Shown: piece by piece, positions 2,012 to 26,561 of the stretch
Numbering within the stretch: the stretch's first letter is position 1
Layout of the letters: every line of letters begins with the position of its first letter
Source: a virus
DNA length: 26,634 bases
Direction: 5' to 3' (one strand)
IMG/VR virus record: IMGVR_UViG_3300030333_004382
Span: 1 to 26,634 of that record
The notes under the pieces: generated by a model
Told to the model about the DNA's origin: nothing
The model's input: only the letters and a program-made list of their open reading frames with translations
The model's database searches: none
Position numbers and translations under genes: made by a program

Positions 2012-2986
2012 TTAAAATAATTTTCTCTGTTTTAATATCTCATCAACTCTTTTTTGGCTAATTGTAGCATGTTTTTCTGTTATTTCATAACCAATAAATT
2101 TTCTCCCCTCCTTAACACTCATTGCACATTCTGTTCCACTTCCTGCAAATGGAACAATTACCAAATCATCTTTTCTGCTGCATGTTAAAATTAATGCTCT
2201 TGTTAATGTTTCTGGCTTAACTGTTTCATGTTCAAATTGTTTATTTTTGTTAGTGTTAAATTGCAAAACCTCATTCAAATTTAGTTTATTATTAAATGGT
2301 CTCCTTAAATCCTCATAATCTTTCCTTAAATCCTCATAATCTTTCCTTAAATACTCATAATCTTTCCCATTATTTAACCATAATTTCAATTTTAAATACA
2401 TTTCTTTTGTAAACATTGTTGGCTCTGCTTTGTCTAAACTTAAACATGATGAGGCAACCCCACCGCCATTTGTTGCTGTTCCCAATGCCTCATTTACCTG
2501 TTTTAAAATAATTTTTCCTTTTGCTCTTATTATTTCATTTCTGATGTAATCCCTTACTGTAAAAATACAACCAGTTAAATTATAATTTTCTAAAGAATAC
2601 ATTAAAATTCTTTCTGTGCATATTGGGAAACATCTTACATTCTCACCTCCAACACTTCCAAACATTCCACCTCTTAGATTATATTTATACCAAACCAAAC
2701 TGTTTTCTAAATTAAAATATTTGTCAAAAATAATTTGAGAATATGCAATATTTTTATCATCCCCATACCAAAATAATGTTCCATTATCTGCCAATAATCT
2801 TTTGCATTCAATTGCCCATTTTTCAACATCTTTTAAATAATCATCAAAAGTTTTCCATATAAAATCAAACTCCCCTTTAATTTTGTAATATGGAGGGTCT
2901 GCAATTATCAAATTTGCACATTTATCTGGCAAATCATTGTTTAAAAAATCAATATTAAATACTTTATTTATTTGTTTAATTTCCAT
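2012..2986 (-). CDS. DNA methyltransferase (N6-adenine/N4-cytosine, beta class), early region
   Basis: This 324-residue amino-methyltransferase has catalytic motif IV DPPY at residues 30-33 and the SAM-binding motif I FAGSGTE at about 280-286, with KPETLTRALI just before it. Motif IV before motif I is the beta-class order. The middle third should be the target-recognition region; it holds an in-frame triplication of RKDYEDL encoded by 21-bp direct repeats. No partner endonuclease is visible, so it is probably an orphan enzyme that protects phage DNA from host restriction or marks it. It overlaps the initiator gene by 11 nt. Confidence 0.9.
   Translation of the reverse strand: MEIKQINKVFNIDFLNNDLPDKCANLIIADPPYYKIKGEFDFIWKTFDDYLKDVEKWAIECKRLLADNGTLFWYGDDKNIAYSQIIFDKYFNLENSLVWYKYNLRGGMFGSVGGENVRCFPICTERILMYSLENYNLTGCIFTVRDYIRNEIIRAKGKIILKQVNEALGTATNGGGVASSCLSLDKAEPTMFTKEMYLKLKLWLNNGKDYEYLRKDYEDLRKDYEDLRRPFNNKLNLNEVLQFNTNKNKQFEHETVKPETLTRALILTCSRKDDLVIVPFAGSGTECAMSVKEGRKFIGYEITEKHATISQKRVDEILKQRKLF
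2303..2365 (-). repeat. Three tandem 21-bp repeats inside the methyltransferase gene
   Basis: Three adjacent 21-bp units start at 2303, 2324 and 2345. The first two are identical and the third differs at one base. They keep the frame and encode repeated RKDYEDL heptads, a charged, coiled-coil-compatible linker in the target-recognition region. The near identity suggests recent expansion by replication slippage. Confidence 0.9.
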
Positions 2987-3665
2987 CTTGTATATTTTTT
3001 AAAATCTGTTTTGCTTTTTCATGAGTAGATAATCTTTCCATTACTTTGCTTTCTATCTGTCCTTTTGATTTGCTCATTAATTCCCAATTTCTAACAGCCG
3101 CCTTCCATGATTTCATTTTATTTTTTCCAACTTTCCATCCATTGCTCTCATAATAATTATAAAATCTTTCAGCACTTATTATATCTCCCCTTTCTTTTAT
3201 GTAATCTTTCAACTCATTAAAATCTGGTTTTTGGAATCTCTTTATAATTTTTTTATTAATTAAAGGTTTAATTATATTATTATTTAATTGTGTGCTGTTT
3301 GGTGTATCTTCATTTTGTGTATCTTCATTTTGTGTATCTTCATTTTGTGTATCTTCAAAACCGCACTTCAGCAATTTGGGATTCTCAAATACTGTATATT
3401 CATAACCTCCAAATCCATTATTTAATCTAATGGGAGTTCTTGAAATATATCCAGCTTTAATTAATTCATTTACAGTAGAAGAGATTGCTCTCTTTCCCTC
3501 TTTACAAATAGAAGCTAATCCAGAAATAGATAAATCCCAAGATGGAGGTAATGCCAATATCATTCCCAACAATCCTTTTGCTTTTAATGATATGTTATTA
3601 TTTTTATATATGTTGTTGCATATGGTTGTATAATTATTATTTTTTACTACTCTTATTATTTCCAT
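2976..3665 (-). CDS. Replication initiator-like winged-helix protein with internal iterons
   Basis: This protein of about 229 residues has an N-terminal winged-helix domain (about residues 1-100; KAKGLLGMILALPPSWDLS, then SGLASICKEGKRAISSTVNELIKAGYI) of the kind found in phage and plasmid initiators and DnaD-type loaders. A low-complexity EDTQN linker follows at about residues 106-125, then a basic C-terminal domain with FYNYYESNGWKVG and KSWKAAVRNW, as in DnaD-like tails. The ATG at 3665 is 1 nt after the preceding stop; a start at 3701 would add 12 residues and overlap. The linker is encoded by 15-bp direct repeats, suggesting that the origin lies inside the gene. Confidence 0.75.
   Translation of the reverse strand: MEIIRVVKNNNYTTICNNIYKNNNISLKAKGLLGMILALPPSWDLSISGLASICKEGKRAISSTVNELIKAGYISRTPIRLNNGFGGYEYTVFENPKLLKCGFEDTQNEDTQNEDTQNEDTPNSTQLNNNIIKPLINKKIIKRFQKPDFNELKDYIKERGDIISAERFYNYYESNGWKVGKNKMKSWKAAVRNWELMSKSKGQIESKVMERLSTHEKAKQILKNIQDGN
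3241..3357 (-). other. Candidate replication origin: 15-bp iterons plus AT-rich stretch within the initiator gene
   Basis: Three perfect 15-bp units (TGTATCTTCATTTTG on the plus strand) start at 3303, 3318 and 3333, followed by a 10-bp partial unit at 3348-3357. On the other side, 3241-3292 is almost pure A and T, with only a few G residues. Read in the gene direction the order is DNA-binding domain, iterons, AT-rich block, C-terminal domain. That is the arrangement of the lambda O gene and ori. Function is inferred. Confidence 0.5.
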
Positions 3666-3666
3666 A

Positions 3667-4038
3667 TTATTCAAATAAAGTTGTTTGTCCAGTTCCTCCA
3701 AATATTATTGATTGTTTTTCTAAAGCATTTAATACATCAACTTGAGCTTTGATTCTTTGTTTTAAACTTATTATATAATCATTTATCTCTTCCATATTTG
3801 TTGCCACATAATAACCATTAGATGATGAACATAATGCTGGGAGCAAATTCTTGATTCTAATATGATTAATAATTTTTCTTAATCTTGGTCCATTAATATT
3901 TAATGCTTTACATATTACTGTACTTGTAACTGCTTTTGCTTTGCCTTGTTTAGTCATTAATCCCTTAACAACTGTTGGTACTAAATTTAATTCTTCTTCA
4001 TTTAGCTCTTGTGTAATTTCTTCAAATCCTTTTATCAT
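3667..4038 (-). CDS. Winged-helix DNA-binding protein, replication region
   Basis: This 123-residue protein begins with an acidic helix (EEITQELNEEELNLV), then a helix-turn-helix-like core (VTSTVICKALNINGPRLRKIINHIRIKNLL) with a beta-wing-like GYYVATNMEEI and a final coiled-coil-like helix (SLKQRIKAQVDVLNALEKQ). It is likely a DNA-binding helper of replication or a regulator; I cannot assign a named family. It sits between the DnaA-like gene (17-nt overlap) and the initiator (1-nt gap), which suggests a role with these two. Its start is preceded by the A-rich leader AAAAACACAAAACA. Confidence 0.65.
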   Translation of the reverse strand: MIKGFEEITQELNEEELNLVPTVVKGLMTKQGKAKAVTSTVICKALNINGPRLRKIINHIRIKNLLPALCSSSNGYYVATNMEEINDYIISLKQRIKAQVDVLNALEKQSIIFGGTGQTTLFE

Positions 4039-6846: not shown

Positions 6847-7086
6847 TTATAGATTTATGATTGATTTTAGGCTACTTGCTAATACTCCATAATAATACCT
6901 TCTGTTTTCTGTTCTAAAATATAGGTATTTATCATCTTCTCCTACTTGTTCACTAAACACTCTTACAGAATAATCAGTAGTGTTGTCAAAAGTATCATTT
7001 CTATCAGAAACTATATCTCCATCTCTATCATCAAATGTTACTACTCTTGCGTTTTCTTTAAATTTAAATTGGTAATTTGCTTTCAT
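6847..7086 (-). CDS. First early protein, unknown
   Basis: This 79-residue protein is the first gene behind the early promoter. It is rich in charged and aromatic residues (MKANYQFKFKENARVVTFDDRDG, then KYLYFRTENRRYYYGVLASSL) and probably all-beta. Being first and followed directly by a terminator, it should be made early and abundantly, as are host-takeover or anti-host proteins, but nothing in the sequence proves that. The start is preceded by the leader AAAAACAAAAAACTATG. No family recognised. Confidence 0.6.
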   Translation of the reverse strand: MKANYQFKFKENARVVTFDDRDGDIVSDRNDTFDNTTDYSVRVFSEQVGEDDKYLYFRTENRRYYYGVLASSLKSIINL

Positions 7087-7116: not shown

Positions 7117-7147
7117 CAAATATAACACTTTTCAACACTTGTGCAAA
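7117..7147 (-). promoter_or_regulatory. Early promoter, Bacteroidota type
   Basis: On the minus strand TTTG (7147-7144), a 19-nt spacer and TATATTTG (7124-7117) give a perfect match to the Bacteroidota -33/-7 consensus TTTG and TAnnTTTG. The ATG of the first early gene follows 31 nt after the -7 box, leaving a leader of roughly 25 nt that contains AAAAACAAAAAAC. The promoter is the core of a 140-bp module that recurs at 23385-23524. Confidence 0.85.
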
Positions 7148-7257
7148 GAAATAACAAGAAAAATTAAATATTTTATGCTGCTGATTATCAATCACTTACA
7201 AGCATTTCAAGAAATTTGTTAATTTGGTAGTGTTTTTTTTTGGTCATTTTTTGGCGA
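7118..7257 (-). repeat. 140-bp regulatory module, copy A (early operon)
   Basis: Aligned without gaps to 23385-23524, this segment is about 76% identical by hand count (about 106 of 140). Conservation is in blocks: a 37-bp promoter core (7118-7154, one mismatch), a 13-bp dyad TGATTATCAATCA (7182-7194, identical), and TTGGCGA (7251-7257, identical). Spacers of 27 and 56 bp are the same length in both copies though their sequence has diverged. Confidence 0.85.
7182..7194. promoter_or_regulatory. Operator-like dyad, copy A
   Basis: TGATT-ATC-AATCA is a 5-bp inverted repeat around 3 bp, about 35 bp upstream of the -33 box. It is identical, at the same distance, in the second module. Position upstream of -33 suits an activator or a distal repressor site. 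The binding protein is unknown. Confidence 0.55.
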
Positions 7258-7295: not shown

Positions 7296-7350
7296 AAAAA
7301 ACCCAGAAGAATTACATATATGCTCACTTTATATATGTGTTTCAACTGGG
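7296..7350 (-). terminator. Terminator after the phosphoesterase gene
   Basis: On the minus strand two 20-nt arms (7350-7331 and 7321-7302) pair as CCCAG, GAA and ACATATAT helices separated by two 2-nt mismatches, with a 9-nt loop, followed at once by six T residues. It is about 50 nt beyond the stop at 7399 and separates late transcription from the early promoter. Confidence 0.75.
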
Positions 7351-7398
7351 CTTATCCAGATTAAAAACAATTTTGCTATTGAAAACGTTGCAAATATA

Positions 7399-8586
7399 TT
7401 AAAAATAATGAACGAGCCTTGCAACTTGTCCAGAATCTTTTTGATGTATAAATCCCTCTACTGCTTTTTGAACACCAGTATAACCTTTTCTGCTATGCCA
7501 TGAGTCAGTTCCAGATGGGCTTCTCATATATTCAACTGTTACTCCTATAAAATCTTTAGCATCCAGCCATTTGTGTTTGACCTTATGATGAACATGGTGC
7601 AAATACCAATATCTGTATTTTGATTTACTCCATTCATCTGGCTTTTCTTGAGCCATTAATAATGGAAGAGAATCCATCTTTGCTCCATCTCCATGCTCTA
7701 ATCCAATCAAGTTTTTACCATAATGATAATACTTTCTATGTGCAACAGATATATCAAATGTAATATCTTTATCATTTCTAAACCAGCATTGAAGAGCATG
7801 TGCTAAATGGAATCCACTTTGATAATCATGGTTGCTCATGGAATGCAAAACATCTACTGGAGCAATTAATCTTAACGTTTCTACACATTTAATATATAAA
7901 TCTAATGCAATCTCAAAATGCTCCCACCATTTCCCATCTGTATCTTGAATAGTTCCTTTTGTTGTTGTTTGATATACGTTGTCAATATGAAGAACATCAT
8001 TTCCAATGCAAAATAATATTTTATCTATCTCAAAGCCCTTTGATTTAGTTATTAGTCCATTTATACCCTCTAAAACTCTATCTGTTGCTATTTTATTATT
8101 ATAATCTGCTCCAGTTTCTTTTTTAACTGCATATTTTCCAATATGTATATCTGCTGGATTTATAACAAGTAGATTATTTGCATCTGGATTTCTTTGGATA
8201 GGAGCATAATATGGAGCATGTTCTGATATTAAATCTTTTATCTTTCCAAGTAACTCTTCATCTCTTATTCTTTGTTTTTCTTTTGTAACAATAGAGAATC
8301 TTAATTCTCCATTCATGGATTGCCAATGTTTAACAGATACTACATCTTTTTTATTTATTCCTCTTTCTTTTAAGTGTTCATCTAATGCTGAATTATTATT
8401 GATATTATCTAAATCAACTACTGATGAGGAATGATTAACAATCTTTGCAATTTGTTTTCTTAAATAATTTGATGTAACATTTAATCCATGATTTTTGATT
8501 AATATATCTGCAATAGCAGTATATCCATTATCAAGATTCCATAATTGTATTATCTCATCTTTATATATAGAATATTTATTATTCAT
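7399..8586 (-). CDS. Calcineurin-like metallophosphoesterase with N-terminal HTH
   Basis: This 395-residue protein has the full two-metal phosphoesterase set: DIH at 146-148, GND at 195-197, NHD at 252-254, HGD at 298-300 and HHVHH at 330-334. Residues 1-50 (KDEIIQLWNLDNGYTAIADILIKNHG, then YLRKQIAKI) resemble a helix-turn-helix domain, so it may act on DNA or be targeted to it. The family cleaves nucleic acids, nucleotides or phosphoproteins; the substrate here is unknown. It is the last gene before the major terminator and starts only about 10 nt after another terminator, so its expression may depend on read-through. Confidence 0.85.
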   Translation of the reverse strand: MNNKYSIYKDEIIQLWNLDNGYTAIADILIKNHGLNVTSNYLRKQIAKIVNHSSSVVDLDNINNNSALDEHLKERGINKKDVVSVKHWQSMNGELRFSIVTKEKQRIRDEELLGKIKDLISEHAPYYAPIQRNPDANNLLVINPADIHIGKYAVKKETGADYNNKIATDRVLEGINGLITKSKGFEIDKILFCIGNDVLHIDNVYQTTTKGTIQDTDGKWWEHFEIALDLYIKCVETLRLIAPVDVLHSMSNHDYQSGFHLAHALQCWFRNDKDITFDISVAHRKYYHYGKNLIGLEHGDGAKMDSLPLLMAQEKPDEWSKSKYRYWYLHHVHHKVKHKWLDAKDFIGVTVEYMRSPSGTDSWHSRKGYTGVQKAVEGFIHQKDSGQVARLVHYF

Positions 8587-20844: not shown

Positions 20845-21621
20845 TTATTTTTTTCTCTTTGCTAATTCTATTTTTAATGAAACCAGAGAACGTTTCACTA
20901 AATCATCTTGCTCATCTTCTTGTTTTATTTTATCTTTATATGTTGCTAATCCTCTTTGAGCAATGATTAAATCATTTGCATCTGGATATGCTGGATAAGT
21001 TACAGCAGAAACATCATATAATCTGTTTATTTTTTTGATAGTTCTAATATTATTACCATCATCATCTGTTGTCCAATCATCCTCTTCAACAGTAAATGCA
21101 AAAGAACTTTGAGTAATATCTCCTCTTTCCATTGATACAACTAAATCTTTTCCATAAGATGTATCTGGCACATCAAATTCATATCTCAATCCCTTTTCAT
21201 CAGCATTTAATCTTAATGTTCCAGATGTTGACCGACCTAAAATAAGATTTTGGTCATGATTGATTAAGGCTCTTACATCCGAGTTTTCTATTAATTCTGG
21301 AGTAAATGCTCCAGATTCAATGAACTCATAAAATCCTCCAAGATTTTCACTTCTTTTTCCATATACAGAAGCATGTCCAATAATTATTTTTTTACCATCT
21401 TCTGTTTCTTCTGTTCTTGTTTCTATATTAAAAATTCTTTTCTCCATAATATTATCATATTTTTTATTCCAAATGTTTCTATTTCCCTCTTCTAATTGCA
21501 CATTGCAAACAGCCAATCTTTGTTTCTCATCTTCAAAATCTTCAACCATAATTTCATCAGTCATACATCTTTCAATGAACTCAGCATCAGTTTCATATTG
21601 TTGAGGCTTAGGCAGTGGCAT
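20845..21621 (-). CDS. Prohead protease with N-terminal RCM/QR-AVC module
   Basis: This 258-residue protein has the HK97-family prohead protease domain from about residue 60 (MEKRIFNIETRT, IGHASVYGKRS, GGFYEFIESGAF) with catalytic H122 (INHDQN) and S172/S173 (ITQSSFAF). Residues 1-40 form an extra module (PLPKPQQYETDAEFIERCM, then QRLAVCN) found in many phage proteins; its role is unknown. The N-terminus overlaps the portal gene by 14 nt. A start at the internal Met 59 would give a bare protease, so both forms may exist. It cleaves the capsid delta domain during maturation. Confidence 0.9.
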   Translation of the reverse strand: MPLPKPQQYETDAEFIERCMTDEIMVEDFEDEKQRLAVCNVQLEEGNRNIWNKKYDNIMEKRIFNIETRTEETEDGKKIIIGHASVYGKRSENLGGFYEFIESGAFTPELIENSDVRALINHDQNLILGRSTSGTLRLNADEKGLRYEFDVPDTSYGKDLVVSMERGDITQSSFAFTVEEDDWTTDDDGNNIRTIKKINRLYDVSAVTYPAYPDANDLIIAQRGLATYKDKIKQEDEQDDLVKRSLVSLKIELAKRKK

Positions 21622-22798
21622 CTTCTTGTCCTATCTTTTCTATTGTAGTCATGTTAAGTGGCATAAAATGTTTATCCCCTCCATCAATACTATTCATATT
21701 TTCTTTTTGTCTTACTTCATTTATACTCATATATCCATTTGTAATTGCTGCTTTATATGCTTCTGTTCTTGATTTAACATCTCCTCTTAATAAAGCATTC
21801 ACATTAAATTCAGTATAAACTCTTCCCAATTCACTTTGTTTAAATAATTTAAGATTCATCTCATTTTCAATCCTTGTTAGATAAGGCATTAATGTATATG
21901 TTACAAATTCTTGAGATTGCATTTCAATATTATTGAAACTTGATTTTGTCAAATCTTTTAACATATGGGGAGGCACATTAAAAATCCTTGCAACTTCTTC
22001 AATTGAAAATTGTCTACTTGTTAAAAATTGTGCTTGGTCTGGAGGAATAGAAATTGGTTTAAATGTTAATCCCTCTTCTAATATTGCAGTTTGATTTGCT
22101 CCAGTTAATTTAGAATATGAATTATTAAATGAGTTTCTTAATCTATCAATTGCAGTTTCACTTAATGCTCTATCAGTTGATAATGTTCCAGAAAGCTTTG
22201 CTCCATTTTTAAAAAAAGTATTTCCATATTCTTCAATTGCTAATCCCCAAGAGATTGCATTTTTACATTGAGAAATTGGAGATAATCCATTTATTCCATC
22301 TGTTGTAATTCCAGTAAAATGTAAAATCTCATTTGAATTATAAGTATCTCCAGTTGATGAATCATCATAATATAATTGGTTGTCTTGTTTTAAAATTGTT
22401 ACATCATCATAATTTAATGGAAATAAATTTACTGGAGTTGCATTATTGTTTCTTGAAATAAAAACATAAGAGTTTCCATTAGTACATAAATCCATCATTA
22501 TCTTTTCCAAAAATGTTATTTTGTTTTGATATGGATTTGGCTTATACTTTAATAAACTGTATATTGGAGATTGAGTTAATTCTTCTGTGTTGCCATCTTT
22601 TTGTTTTTCATAAACAGATAATGGTAATGATGAAACACTTTCACTTAATAATCTGATTGCACTCCAAACAGCAGTAAAAGTTAATGCAGTATCATTACCA
22701 ACATTAACACCGCTACCGAAAGCTGTGCTAAATGATATACTCCTCTCTTGCTTTTTAGGAGGATTGAAGATGCTTTTAATTGAATCAAGTATGCTCAA
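21608..22798 (-). CDS. Portal protein (HK97 family)
   Basis: This 396-residue protein has the family pattern: TALTFTAVWSAIRLLSESVSSLPL near the N-terminus, NGNSYVFISRNN, then ILHFTGITTDGINGLSPI, the FNVPPHMLKDL segment and the C-terminal INEVRQKENMNSI. It forms the 12-mer ring through which DNA enters and to which the terminase and connector bind. I see no ATG that fits; translation appears to begin at TTG (22798), with an in-frame stop further upstream. It is the first gene after the terminator of the small cassette. Confidence 0.93.
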   Translation of the reverse strand: MSILDSIKSIFNPPKKQERSISFSTAFGSGVNVGNDTALTFTAVWSAIRLLSESVSSLPLSVYEKQKDGNTEELTQSPIYSLLKYKPNPYQNKITFLEKIMMDLCTNGNSYVFISRNNNATPVNLFPLNYDDVTILKQDNQLYYDDSSTGDTYNSNEILHFTGITTDGINGLSPISQCKNAISWGLAIEEYGNTFFKNGAKLSGTLSTDRALSETAIDRLRNSFNNSYSKLTGANQTAILEEGLTFKPISIPPDQAQFLTSRQFSIEEVARIFNVPPHMLKDLTKSSFNNIEMQSQEFVTYTLMPYLTRIENEMNLKLFKQSELGRVYTEFNVNALLRGDVKSRTEAYKAAITNGYMSINEVRQKENMNSIDGGDKHFMPLNMTTIEKIGQEDATA

Positions 22799-22872
22799 AA
22801 TCTTATAAGAATTTTCACAATAATACGTTTTAATTTTTTATTAGATGTGCAACTTGTTTGCATTTATAAAAT

Positions 22873-22901
22873 AAAAAAAACCCTTGCAGATTATACAAGG
22901 G
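22873..22901 (-). terminator. Terminator closing the two-gene cassette
   Basis: CCCTTG and CAAGGG form a 6-bp GC-rich stem with a 9-nt loop, followed by eight T residues (minus strand). It is 30 nt past the stop at 22931 and about 75 nt before the portal start, so late transcripts coming from the terminase genes must pass it. Confidence 0.8.
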
Positions 22902-22930
22902 CTTTTAAATTTCTGACATAATTTTTCTTT

Positions 22931-23173
22931 TTAGTTATTAATCTCTTTTATATCTTCTTTAGAAAATCTACCCACATAATCTCCTTTTTTTAAAGTTGTA
23001 ATTTCCCATCTTTTATACTGATAATTATAATCTACATACCAACCACATTTTAAAGTATAATATATACCATAATCACTTTCTTCTTTTTTTACAACTTCTC
23101 TGTCCATTGTATGCGAGGTAATTTCTTGATTGTTATACAAATCTTTAAAGTTAATTCTTAATTTTATTGCCAT
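22931..23173 (-). CDS. Small protein of the inserted cassette, unknown (80 aa)
   Basis: This 80-residue protein is predicted mostly beta with aromatic strands (GIYYTLKCGWYVDYNYQYKRWEI) and an acidic-basic end (KKGDYVGRFSKEDIKEINN). I recognise no family. It is the second gene of a promoter-to-terminator cassette between the terminase region and the portal, the position and layout of a moron. The leader is AAAAGCAAAAAACAATG. It could be a host-takeover or anti-defence protein, by context only. Confidence 0.6.
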   Translation of the reverse strand: MAIKLRINFKDLYNNQEITSHTMDREVVKKEESDYGIYYTLKCGWYVDYNYQYKRWEITTLKKGDYVGRFSKEDIKEINN

Positions 23174-23185
23174 TGTTTTTTGCTT

Positions 23186-23359
23186 TTAATTATTAAAATT
23201 ATTTGTGTATTGGTCTATAAATTTTCTCCAATCTTTTCTGTTTACTAAATTTACTTTATATACTTCTCCGATGTATTTTCTAACCATTGAGTTTGAATCT
23301 CCCATACTATGAATATGAAATAGTAGTTTTAGTAACTCTAATTTTGTTTCTTTTTTCAT
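23186..23359 (-). CDS. First small protein of the inserted cassette, unknown (57 aa)
   Basis: This 57-residue frame (MKKETKLELLKLLFHIHSMG and on, ending NNFNN) is predicted to be helical with an amphipathic first helix. It begins 25 nt after the -7 box of the duplicated promoter and has the leader AAAAACAAAAAACAATG, identical in form to the first early gene. No family recognised. The strong expression signals are the main evidence that it is real. Confidence 0.65.
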   Translation of the reverse strand: MKKETKLELLKLLFHIHSMGDSNSMVRKYIGEVYKVNLVNRKDWRKFIDQYTNNFNN

Positions 23360-23383
23360 TGTTTTTTGTTTTTAATTATACTG

Positions 23384-23414
23384 TAAATATAACACTTTTC
23401 AACAATTGTGCAAA
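23384..23414 (-). promoter_or_regulatory. Cassette promoter, duplicate of the early promoter
   Basis: On the minus strand TTTG (23414-23411), a 19-nt spacer and TATATTTA (23391-23384), one base off the TAnnTTTG consensus. The last base change may make it weaker than the early copy. The ATG of the 57-residue gene follows 25 nt after the -7 box. Confidence 0.8.
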
Positions 23415-23524
23415 GAAATAAGACAAAATAATTATACTTTTATTTTGTTGATTATCAATCAGTTACGTATGTTTAATAAAAATAGTTGATTTTAATGTAA
23501 TTTTTTTTGGCGGTTTTTTGGCGA
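23385..23524 (-). repeat. 140-bp regulatory module, copy B (cassette)
   Basis: This is the partner of 7118-7257. The promoter core (23385-23421), the dyad TGATTATCAATCA (23449-23461) and TTGGCGA (23518-23524) sit at the same distances as in copy A. The far 33 bp fall inside the 3' end of the small gene that ends at 23492, so the insertion of the module may have replaced that gene's original tail. Confidence 0.85.
23449..23461. promoter_or_regulatory. Operator-like dyad, copy B
   Basis: TGATT-ATC-AATCA, identical to 7182-7194 and placed at the same distance upstream of the -33 box. The sequence NTTAC follows in both copies. A shared DNA-binding protein, phage or host, is implied. Confidence 0.55.
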
Positions 23525-23713
23525 TTTTAGTCGTTTATCTCTGCTATTTCTATAACTATTATAACCAGCATATCTTCTTTTTTTAAAATGTTTTTTGTAC
23601 TCTTCTTCTAATTTTTCATATGCTTCTTGATATGTTTTGCTTTCTCTTGCTAAATGCCAGAATCGTTTATCAAAACCCTCTGGATTTAATAATGCTATTA
23701 TTTCTAATTCCAT
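23492..23713 (-). CDS. Small basic protein after terminase, unknown
   Basis: This 73-residue protein has a helical first part (FDKRFWHLARESKTYQEAYEKL) and a strongly basic tail (KKHFKKRRYAGYNSYRNSRD and on). It starts 1 nt after the large terminase stop. The tail ends within the regulatory module and is of low complexity there, so the C-terminus may be a by-product of module insertion. It may bind DNA during packaging. No family recognised. Confidence 0.6.
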   Translation of the reverse strand: MELEIIALLNPEGFDKRFWHLARESKTYQEAYEKLEEEYKKHFKKRRYAGYNSYRNSRDKRLKSPKNRQKKLH

Positions 23714-23714
23714 A

Positions 23715-25253
23715 TTATATTGTTATTATTCCTCTTTCGTTATATATACTTTCTGATTCATCTTCTGAGTAATATTCCCCAAGAGCCATTATTAATGCAA
23801 CAATTGGGTCTATTCTATCTGTTGATTTTGCTTTGTTTGGTTTGATGTTTCCTGCTGGGTCCTCTTGAATTGCTACATTTGATAAACACCAATTCAAGCA
23901 TGGGTTGTTATCGTGGATTATATTTTTCCCAATTATTTGAATCTCTAAATCTTTTGTTGGCATATTCATTGACACAAATCCTTGTCCAAATGGGTCAAGA
24001 GTTGCTCCATCATTTTGCAAATCAATTACTAATTGAGAAGCTCCCCACCTATCATAAGCAATAGATTGGATTCTATATTTTTTACTCAAGTCATTTATCT
24101 TTGCTCTAATGAAATTATAATCTTGAACATCTCCAGCTGTTCCAAATATATATCCATCTCTTAACCATTCCATATAATTAACACCATCTCTATCACTTCT
24201 TTTTTTTGCATTTTCTTCTGGGATAAATATGTATGGTCTTACAATAAATTTACCATCAATATTAAACAGCAAAACAAATGCACTTAAATCTCTGGAAGAA
24301 GCTAAATCCAATCCTCCCCAACATTCTTTTCCATCTAAAATTGAATAATCAAAATCTTGATAACATTCCATCCATTCATTATGTCCAATCCATTTGGTTT
24401 GAGATTCAGTCCAAATATTTAGCATCAATCTTTTAAATGTGTTTTGATATGATGGTAAATCAACTGCTCTTTGAGATTCTCTTTTCATATAATCTTTTCT
24501 CAATGATACTCCATAATTTGGATTGGCTTTCTTCCATACTTCTTCACTTGTAATATCATCTTCATTATCTGCTTCAAAAATTACTGGGTAAAATGATTCA
24601 TCTTTTATGCTGCCATCTTTAACTTTCTTTGCATAAGAATAAACCTCATAGCATATTGATTGCTTATCATATCCAGCAGTTGTAATTGCAATTGTTAATG
24701 GCTCTCTTCTTGCTCCAGTTGATGTTGTTAATGTATCCCATAAATCTCTGTTTGGTTGTGTATGTAGTTCATCAAAAATAATGCAGTTTGCATTGAATCC
24801 ATGTTTGGTTTTACTATCAGAAGAAATAGCTTGGAAGAAATTTCCTTTGCTTTGATTTGTAATTGAATTTCTAAACACTTTTCCTCTCTGCTCTAATTCT
24901 GGATTTTGTAATATCATACTCTTAGCAATTTCAAAAACTATTCCAGCTTGATTTCTATCTCCAGCAGCAGCATATATTTCAGCTCCTCTTTCATTATCTG
25001 CAAACAACATATAAATCCCAATGGCTGCACATAGTGTTGTCTTACCATTCTTTCTTGGTACTTCAATAAATACTGTTCTATATTTTCTGAATCCATTATC
25101 TTTATTTTTCCATCCAAATATATCTCCCACAATTTCTTTTTGCCAATCCTCCAGCAGAAAAGGTTTTCCAGTTAGTTCTCCTTTTGTATGTGTTATAAAA
25201 GTTTCAATAAAACTTATTGCTTTATGTGAGGCATCTTTATCAAAATAATACAT
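23715..25253 (-). CDS. terL: Terminase large subunit
   Basis: This 512-residue packaging motor has Walker A VPRKNGKT (residues 65-72), Walker B with catalytic glutamate IIFDELH (158-164) and a motif III-like TTSTGARREP (coupling). The RNase H-like nuclease domain has its first acidic residue in GGLDLASSRD (313-322), further acids around AYDRWG (D401) and DRIDPIVAL near the C-terminus. It belongs to the HK97/Terminase_1 family. It pumps DNA through the portal and cuts the concatemer, probably with the HNH protein. The order small terminase, methyltransferase, large terminase is slightly unusual. Confidence 0.96.
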   Translation of the reverse strand: MYYFDKDASHKAISFIETFITHTKGELTGKPFLLEDWQKEIVGDIFGWKNKDNGFRKYRTVFIEVPRKNGKTTLCAAIGIYMLFADNERGAEIYAAAGDRNQAGIVFEIAKSMILQNPELEQRGKVFRNSITNQSKGNFFQAISSDSKTKHGFNANCIIFDELHTQPNRDLWDTLTTSTGARREPLTIAITTAGYDKQSICYEVYSYAKKVKDGSIKDESFYPVIFEADNEDDITSEEVWKKANPNYGVSLRKDYMKRESQRAVDLPSYQNTFKRLMLNIWTESQTKWIGHNEWMECYQDFDYSILDGKECWGGLDLASSRDLSAFVLLFNIDGKFIVRPYIFIPEENAKKRSDRDGVNYMEWLRDGYIFGTAGDVQDYNFIRAKINDLSKKYRIQSIAYDRWGASQLVIDLQNDGATLDPFGQGFVSMNMPTKDLEIQIIGKNIIHDNNPCLNWCLSNVAIQEDPAGNIKPNKAKSTDRIDPIVALIMALGEYYSEDESESIYNERGIITI

Positions 25254-25901
25254 TTAAAATAATCTTTTTTGTTGTTTATGTTGTTCTATTCTTTTCATAG
25301 CTGCTTCATAATATTCCTTATCAATTTCACAAGCTGTTAAATCAAAACCCAAGTTATGACAAGCAATGGCAATACTTCCACTTCCTAAATGTGTATCGAG
25401 TATTTTGTCTCCCTCTTTTGCATAGTTCATAAGCAACCATTCGTATAATTTAACAGGCTTTTGAGTTGGATGTATTCTATCTTTACCACCTCTTGTTCCA
25501 TGATGGGTTGATACTGTAAATTTTCTTAACGCCTTTTTAAAACTATTCCAAGCTAATTCTCCATCCGAAAAAGTACTGCCTTCTCCATTTATTTTATCCC
25601 AAAATATCCAAGAATTTGTTGGTTTTAGAAAATCTGTAAAATAATTACCCCCCCAAATTATTTGGTTTTTACTCACTCTAAATAATTCATTAAAATATTT
25701 TTTGGCAGGTATTACATTATCCCATTCTTTTGTTTTGTGTTTTTGCTTATAAAAATAACTATTAGGTCTTGAGGGTTTAGTAATAGCTAAATATTTACTC
25801 ATATTTATACCATAAGGTGGGTCTACTATTGCTAAGTCAAAATGGTTATCTTCATATCTTGACATCAGTTCCATATTATCTTCATTGGTAATATTAATCA
25901 A
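25254..25901 (-). CDS. DNA methyltransferase (N6-adenine/N4-cytosine), late region
   Basis: This 215-residue enzyme has motif IV DPPYG (residues 27-31) near the N-terminus, the conserved HPTQKP at about 145-150 and motif I DTHLGSGS at about 169-176. It is a short beta-class orphan methyltransferase with little room for a target domain. It is inserted between small and large terminase genes, overlapping the former by 8 nt and abutting the latter. Methylating DNA just as it is packaged would protect it on the next infection, or could mark cos. Confidence 0.92.
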   Translation of the reverse strand: MINITNEDNMELMSRYEDNHFDLAIVDPPYGINMSKYLAITKPSRPNSYFYKQKHKTKEWDNVIPAKKYFNELFRVSKNQIIWGGNYFTDFLKPTNSWIFWDKINGEGSTFSDGELAWNSFKKALRKFTVSTHHGTRGGKDRIHPTQKPVKLYEWLLMNYAKEGDKILDTHLGSGSIAIACHNLGFDLTACEIDKEYYEAAMKRIEQHKQQKRLF

Positions 25902-26370
25902 AATAATTATTTATTTGTGTATTGTTATTTGTAATTGGTGCAGAGATAGAAGCTCTTGCTACTGGTGTTAATCCAAATTGTGTTGCAAGTTTCATTGCAT
26001 TATTTAATGCGTCATTTTTCATTTTAACATAAGGCTTGGCTTGGCTTCTAACTAAATCTCCATTAGTGTTTGTAAAATTATCTACTCTTCCATTTTTTCT
26101 TAATTCCATTTCACATTCAATATATAATGCTACTTCGTTACAGTACATCTCAATCAATCTCAAATCAACACCATGCAACATATTAAGATTGAATAATTGT
26201 TTTGTTACTTTTACCCATTCTTGCTTCCCTAACTTGCTCAACAAACTTGGAGCTTTAGGAATTGAAGAGCATAAATCAACCTCCATTTCATTCTCAATTA
26301 ATCTGCTTTTCTCTAAAGTTCCTTGCATTTCTTTTAAAGCAGTTGGTGTTTTTTTTCTTCCCTTTCCCAT
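25894..26370 (-). CDS. terS: Terminase small subunit (P27 type)
   Basis: This 158-residue protein starts MGKGRKKTPTALKEMQGTLEKSRL and has PKAPSLLSKLGKQEWVKVTKQL, HGVDLRLIEMYCNEVALYIE, and AKPYVKMKNDALNNAMKLATQFGLTPVARA. These are the hallmarks of the P27-family small terminase. It recognises the packaging site and loads DNA on the large subunit. It overlaps the zinc-ribbon stop by 1 nt, so the two should be co-translated. Confidence 0.92.
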   Translation of the reverse strand: MGKGRKKTPTALKEMQGTLEKSRLIENEMEVDLCSSIPKAPSLLSKLGKQEWVKVTKQLFNLNMLHGVDLRLIEMYCNEVALYIECEMELRKNGRVDNFTNTNGDLVRSQAKPYVKMKNDALNNAMKLATQFGLTPVARASISAPITNNNTQINNYFD

Positions 26371-26561
26371 TATGATTTATTTAAAGTTGGCTCTGTTCTT
26401 ATCAAGCTTGGGAATCCATTGAAATTTTTTTCCACCTCAACCATGTAATTTCCACATTCACATCTGGCTTCTTTCGTTCTGATTTTTCCATCAACAATTT
26501 CCAAAGTTGCTTTCATTAATTTTTTTTGTTTGTTACATTTTTTACATTGAAATATCATCAT
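26370..26561 (-). CDS. Small zinc-ribbon protein before terminase
   Basis: This 63-residue protein has C6-x2-C9 and C34-x-C36, a zinc-ribbon-like four-cysteine set (FQCKKCNKQ, then EARCECGNY). The fold is predicted beta with a flexible tail (SLIRTEPTLNKS). It is the first gene of the packaging operon, so a role at the packaging site or in late transcription is possible. No named family is assigned. Confidence 0.65.
   Translation of the reverse strand: MMIFQCKKCNKQKKLMKATLEIVDGKIRTKEARCECGNYMVEVEKNFNGFPSLIRTEPTLNKS

Follow-up and report, generated by a model that had tools for sequence, protein, structure and literature searches.

A 140-bp element occurs twice on the minus strand of the window, by which we mean the entire IMG/VR virus record of 26,634 bases, and on balance we favour reading it as a duplicated, transferable early-type promoter module. 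The element combines a promoter core with two upstream blocks, a dyad and a CG box, whose distances are kept while the sequence between them has diverged. A similar layout in an unrelated phage group and the absence of insertions and deletions between the blocks support selection on this geometry.

Layout of the two copies

The copies, at 7118-7257 (copy 1) and 23385-23524 (copy 2), align without a gap, as a sequence-only reading of this DNA had claimed, and its block counts were borne out on re-measurement: 36 of 37 positions agree in the core, 13 of 13 in the dyad and 7 of 7 in TTGGCGA. The spacers, which that reading had put at 27 and 56 bp with about 55-62% identity, have exactly those lengths and match at 15/27 (56%) and 35/56 (62%) of their positions. 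Directly beyond the module edges, similarity between the copies is at background level. The repeat (166 nt, 73%) is the longest and best direct repeat of the window, and blastn recovers copy 2 with an E-value of 1.7e-27.

Along the minus strand, the module consists of the CG box TCGCCAA, 56 bp, the dyad TGATTGATAATCA with GTAAS just 5′ of it, 27 bp, and a 37-bp core containing TTTG-N19-TATATTT, with the palindromic site about 50 bp and the CG box about 110 bp upstream of the promoter. The five bases of GTAAS belong to the dyad, which refines the block limits. The core of copy 1 (7118-7154) includes TTATTTC and pairs a -33 TTTG (7144-7147), across N19, with the -7 box TATATTTG (7117-7124). Its dyad GTAAGTGATTGATAATCA (7182-7199), with a 13-bp core at 7182-7194, is a Bacteroidota-enriched 18-mer, and its CG box (7251-7257; TTGGCGA on the plus strand) lies 58 bp 5′ of GTAAS, as in the phage module L372b described below, and has A-runs behind it at intervals of about 11 bp. 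Copy 2 has its core at 23385-23421, with the -33 TTTG at 23411-23414 and the -7 box TATATTTA at 23384-23391, its dyad GTAACTGATTGATAATCA at 23449-23466 (13-bp core 23449-23461) and its CG box at 23518-23524, within the 3′ end of a 73-aa ORF. When the window was searched, the dyad 13-mer, TTGGCGA and TTTGCACAA were each found at the two module sites only. As RNA, the dyad has no stable fold (z ~0).

Promoters recognised by sigmaABfr in Bacteroidota have TTTG at -33, TAHHTTTG at -7 and a spacer of 19 (PMC6847099). The module shares all three features, copy 1 exactly and copy 2 with A for the last G of the -7 box, and its core can be classed from the sequence as a Bacteroidota-type promoter. In PMC6847099, the description of sigmaABfr promoters mentions neither a CG box nor a dyad at set distances, whereas the module has both.

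Genome context and the copy 2 cassette

The main genes, on the minus strand, run from TerS through a methyltransferase, TerL, the 73-aa ORF, copy 2, two small ORFs and a terminator to the portal, continue with protease, capsid, adaptors, tail, holin, endolysin and exonuclease, and end with a terminator-like hairpin, copy 1, small ORFs and replication genes. Upstream of copy 1, the exonuclease gene (7399-8586; phrog_704, E 1.3e-73) is followed at its 3′ end by a strong hairpin (7300-7352; -18.9 kcal/mol, z -4.0), a probable terminator. The first ORF after copy 1 (6847-7086, 79 aa) has no family, and a different ORF occupies that place in the 94%-identical contig G001/L131.

Copy 2 lies in a cassette of about 0.66 kb (22866-23525) that is absent from a close relative, L051, in which matches to 21521-22865 and 23514-25924 directly abut (12 bp ambiguous); L051 is about 93% identical beside the insertion site. 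The 73-aa ORF (23492-23713), between TerL and copy 2, has its C-terminal tail encoded by module DNA, and this tail differs in relatives without the insert. The two passenger ORFs, of 57 aa (23186-23359) and 80 aa (22931-23173), have no family and no Pfam match and were not found in six related contigs. An intrinsic terminator with a 13-bp stem and T tail (22876-22906; -15.6 kcal/mol, z -4.7) closes the cassette and is also present in L232; no obvious terminator follows the cassette of L057. Both L057 and L232 carry other small ORFs after the module at the TerL-portal site, and the gene downstream of the module is different in every copy, including that at the early site of G001.

The copy 2 cassette has the features of a moron: an insert between genes that adjoin in relatives (empty in L051, other genes in L057 and L232), a promoter of its own with consensus -33 and -7 boxes at the sequence level, and its own terminator. 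Copy 2 is best regarded as the head of a self-contained moron comprising module, two small ORFs and terminator, not simply as an internal promoter. The proposal that an early operon and an internal cassette are under one control is plausible, but the cassette headed by copy 2 has its own terminator and lies outside the structural operon.

Conservation of spacing and recombination among relatives

IMG/VR was searched with TerL, the exonuclease and exact patterns, which gave three further module-bearing contigs: L131/G001 with the module at the early site, and L057/G002 and L232/G003 with the module at the TerL-portal site. Three exact patterns (dyad with promoter, dyad with following bases, core alone) returned the same three contigs only. 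Across the five copies in four contigs, the spacings are identical, L232 being assessed by ungapped alignment, and 34 of 37 core positions and 13 of 13 dyad positions are invariant. The TTGGCGA block, kept in full between the window copies, is one base off in each of L131 and L232 and is degenerate, NCGMC-like; unlike it, the A-runs just inside the CG box are unchanged in all five.

Not one spacer indel separates these five copies. The ratio of indels to substitutions in non-coding DNA around the module is 0.10-0.17 (0.14-0.17 in larger samples), and at this local ratio the roughly 60 spacer substitutions on the tree would lead one to expect 6-10 indels, so that zero has a probability of about 2e-3 to 3e-5. 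Without the stretch that is coding in copy 2, 4-6 are expected (P ~0.002-0.02); the location of the CG box in coding sequence there may itself restrict indels.

The contig L232 is copy-2-like upstream of the core (55/56 and 26/27 positions) and has the copy 1 leader downstream (25/25), showing recombination through the promoter core. Given that the downstream gene varies from copy to copy and that one copy is recombinant at the core, the module would act as a transferable promoter joint.

A similar layout in unrelated phages

A second phage group (group B: L372, L368, L409 and L410) has no detected protein in common with the window, apart from a single stretch of 54 residues in L410, and carries the blocks in the window's order. 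Its CG box, in the variants TCGCCAA, TCGCC, ACGAC and GCGAC, stands 57-58 bp before GTAAS (58 in the window), and GTAAS stands 50-51 bp before TTTG (52 in the window), while spacer identity with the window is only 39-53%. Two three-block modules each are present in L372 and L368. In L372b, TCGCCAA is exact at the predicted offset, with a chance of about 2e-4 for that one offset, estimated empirically from 5 occurrences in 27,000 strand positions. A near-equal layout in an unrelated virus group indicates that spacing probably matters, and module geometry appears to have outlasted sequence, whether or not the groups share remote descent of the module. The reading of TTGGCGA as a fossil 3′ tail of the 73-aa ORF was rejected, since the group B modules keep the offset of the box behind a terminator, with no 73-aa gene there. 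The repeated modules of group B (L372:1940-3070, L368, L409) contain TGCAAATATTTTGCA-like palindromes in addition; one of these overlaps the -33 box and another stands roughly 100 bp upstream.

The suggestion that block spacing is under selection therefore gains support from both the missing indels and the layout of group B. The check proposed with it, whether related phages vary in spacing, gave a graded answer: the five copies are identical, the two groups differ by 1-2 bp, and other phages place the dyad at 45-57 bp from the -33 box, facing either way and with no evident CG box. In L385, L391, L388 and L390, the dyad precedes the promoter in the opposite orientation, some 71-81 bp from the -7 box. 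Counts of -7 boxes around the dyad in phage contigs outside the group show a roughly 5.6-fold higher density at distances of 60-90 bp than at greater ones (15 seen, 2.7 expected; Poisson 1.5e-7), and chromosomes show no excess of -7 boxes near the dyad. Phage copies preserve the right half of the palindrome poorly, with 3-5 of 9 outer bases kept.

The dyad in Bacteroidota genomes

The 18-mer GTAASTGATTGATAATCA was found in at least 119 stretches of GTDB genomes, and among the matches listed with titles about 75 of 80 are from Bacteroidota, judged from those titles. On this sampling, the site is almost confined to Bacteroidota genomes and is not private to phages. By one measure, 70 of 107 occurrences fall outside ORFs (12% for random positions), for which the stop codons of the 18-mer itself account in part. 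The right flank tends toward completing the palindrome (z 8.5), and there is no fixed orientation relative to genes. At GTDB loci L245-L363, the 18-mer frequently lies close to a terminator and in some cases 17-20 bp 3′ of a tRNA gene, and one Microscillaceae MAG has 31 exact copies. A literature search found no published role for the 18-mer or the dyad sequence.

Though concentrated in Bacteroidota, the exact 18-mer is rare per genome: with no mismatches it occurred in 1 of 247 genomes of a phylum sample, the centre genome itself. With up to three mismatches, the dyad motif is above its reversed control in most sampled genomes. The host and phage scan that had been called for was borne out on the phage side, where blocks at fixed spacing were found, but not on the host side, where dyad plus promoter had no match in the genome-contig collection and none in 396 genomes of one Bacteroidota order, that of a Flavobacteriaceae MAG. 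On these two counts, a host promoter class is not supported. A plasmid blast returned chance AT-rich matches only. The enrichment of -7 boxes near the dyad in phages, with none in chromosomes, suggests that phages have placed a site of the host phylum into their promoters.

Proposed mechanism and alternative explanations

We propose that host Bacteroidota RNA polymerase of the sigmaABfr type would recognise the -33/-7 core, an assignment made at the sequence level. A dimeric DNA-binding protein would bind the dyad near -75, and it is probably host-supplied because the dyad is an intergenic palindrome found Bacteroidota-wide. The CG box and A-runs, near -140, may provide a second contact, and together these would activate, or loop onto, the polymerase in a fixed geometry. 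That several proteins are bound in such a geometry is what we infer from the module. Copy 1, placed after the exonuclease terminator, would drive the early region. Copy 2 may have been carried with, or recruited by, the moron inserted between the TerL-linked gene and the portal, and would let the cassette fire with the early genes, independent of late transcription. Recombination through the module, of which L232 is the one recombinant seen, would exchange cassettes, as the conserved joint followed by changing small genes suggests.

It is possible, although we think it unlikely, that only the sigma promoter is functional, and that after a recent duplication the upstream likeness is leftover homology whose spacing was kept as few indels occurred. 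The spacers are indeed still 56-62% identical, in many relatives the promoter that follows the exonuclease has neither dyad nor CG box, and L372 itself has promoter copies without upstream blocks. However, the dyad is intact in all five copies while its flanks have diverged, no indel is seen against the 6-10 expected, the block layout recurs in an unrelated group, and the dyad-promoter association is specific to phages.

Alternatively, the dyad could be an operator for repression, whether host silencing or a phage repressor, with the second upstream site allowing a repression loop and the two copies coordinating shut-off. Module anatomy also suits looping repression, and the repeated TGCAAATATTTTGCA-like palindromes of group B, one overlapping -33, fit it too. 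We nevertheless hold it to be improbable: the dyad is 34 bp upstream of -33, and activation is preferred because this leaves it clear of the predicted polymerase footprint; moreover, the window proteins searched included no recognisable integrase or repressor. The missing integrase weighs also against the dyad as a recombination or attachment site, for an integrase or for cassette insertion, with promoter proximity secondary. This we regard as highly improbable, even though some chromosomal copies are 17-20 bp 3′ of tRNA genes and cassettes exchange beside the module. The cassettes break at the CG box and at the terminator, and the recombinant copy is joined within the promoter core. No strand-exchange joint was seen at the dyad, and no linked integrase was recognised in the proteins scanned; a tRNA lies within 150 bp in 8 of 152 cases (random 1.3%, about 1.9 expected), mostly of one tRNA family.

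Returning to the promoter module, we tentatively put forward a wider conjecture, that Bacteroidota encode an undescribed dimeric protein for the palindrome GTAASTGATTGAT-A-ATCAATCASTTAC, around which unrelated phages may have built a fixed-geometry activating region (CG box, 58 bp, dyad, ~51 bp, -33), a portable module for early expression through which morons join the early programme.

Comparison with known systems

The pid moron of P22 is an insert that is absent or different in relatives and has a 3′ terminator (PMC3573128). The copy 2 cassette likewise consists of small ORFs inserted between genes adjoining in relatives, with a 3′ intrinsic terminator. It differs in lying on its neighbours' strand and in its promoter, which duplicates the region of the phage's early promoter, long upstream architecture included.

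Promoter early stem-loops (PeSLs) of T4-type phages, as PMC4503421 relates them from Arbiol 2010 and Comeau 2014, are repeated units of early promoter and stem-loop linked to gene shuffling. On that account, the module, with its promoter copies and swapped genes, may resemble them as a repeated promoter unit associated with gene exchange. It differs in host phylum and promoter type, in having two copies and not many, and in its additional blocks, a CG box and a dyad set at fixed distance. Moreover, a terminator is adjacent at copy 1 only and not beside the promoter of copy 2. Where T4-type phages have E. coli-like early promoters, those of the window are TTTG-N19-TAnnTTT, and its structural genes are not of T4 type.

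The SAS and ESAS repeats of Cluster K mycobacteriophages stand upstream of many, often small, unrelated genes, with an inverted repeat in about half (PMC3203893), and are similar to the module as conserved repeats upstream of small unrelated phage genes. SASs are found at the start codon, and the spacers of ESASs are variable, whereas the module blocks stand upstream of a promoter at fixed spacing, well upstream of the ATG, and the module ends before the leader.

No description of the fixed-spacing upstream architecture was found in the literature searched, to which the original PeSL papers did not belong. The moron, the PeSL-like promoter cassette and the sigmaABfr promoter are known kinds of element; the upstream architecture would be new. 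For Bacteroidota phages, descriptions of promoter architecture that go beyond -33/-7 are few. A fixed-spacing upstream element common to unrelated phages would be a handle on takeover of host transcription, and the module offers an easily tested, portable candidate for a strong promoter. The dyad points to a widespread, putative DNA-binding site in Bacteroidota, and the copy 2 cassette suggests how a phage gains new small genes together with a ready early-promoter copy.

Other features of the record

An ORF at 4022-4429 matches the DnaA C-terminal helix-turn-helix (Pfam E 1e-6, narrowly short of the curated threshold) and adjoins a DnaD/replication-initiator-like ORF (2976-3701) that contains a 15-bp, in-frame-looking tandem repeat (3298-3357). 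Two distinct DNA methyltransferase genes are present, at 2012-2986 and 25254-25901; the latter lies between TerS and TerL and was not detected in G002, a relative that carries the module. An HNH endonuclease (1-381) and the small terminase (25894-26561) lie at opposite ends of the record, which suggests a near-complete, circularly permuted genome cut between them.
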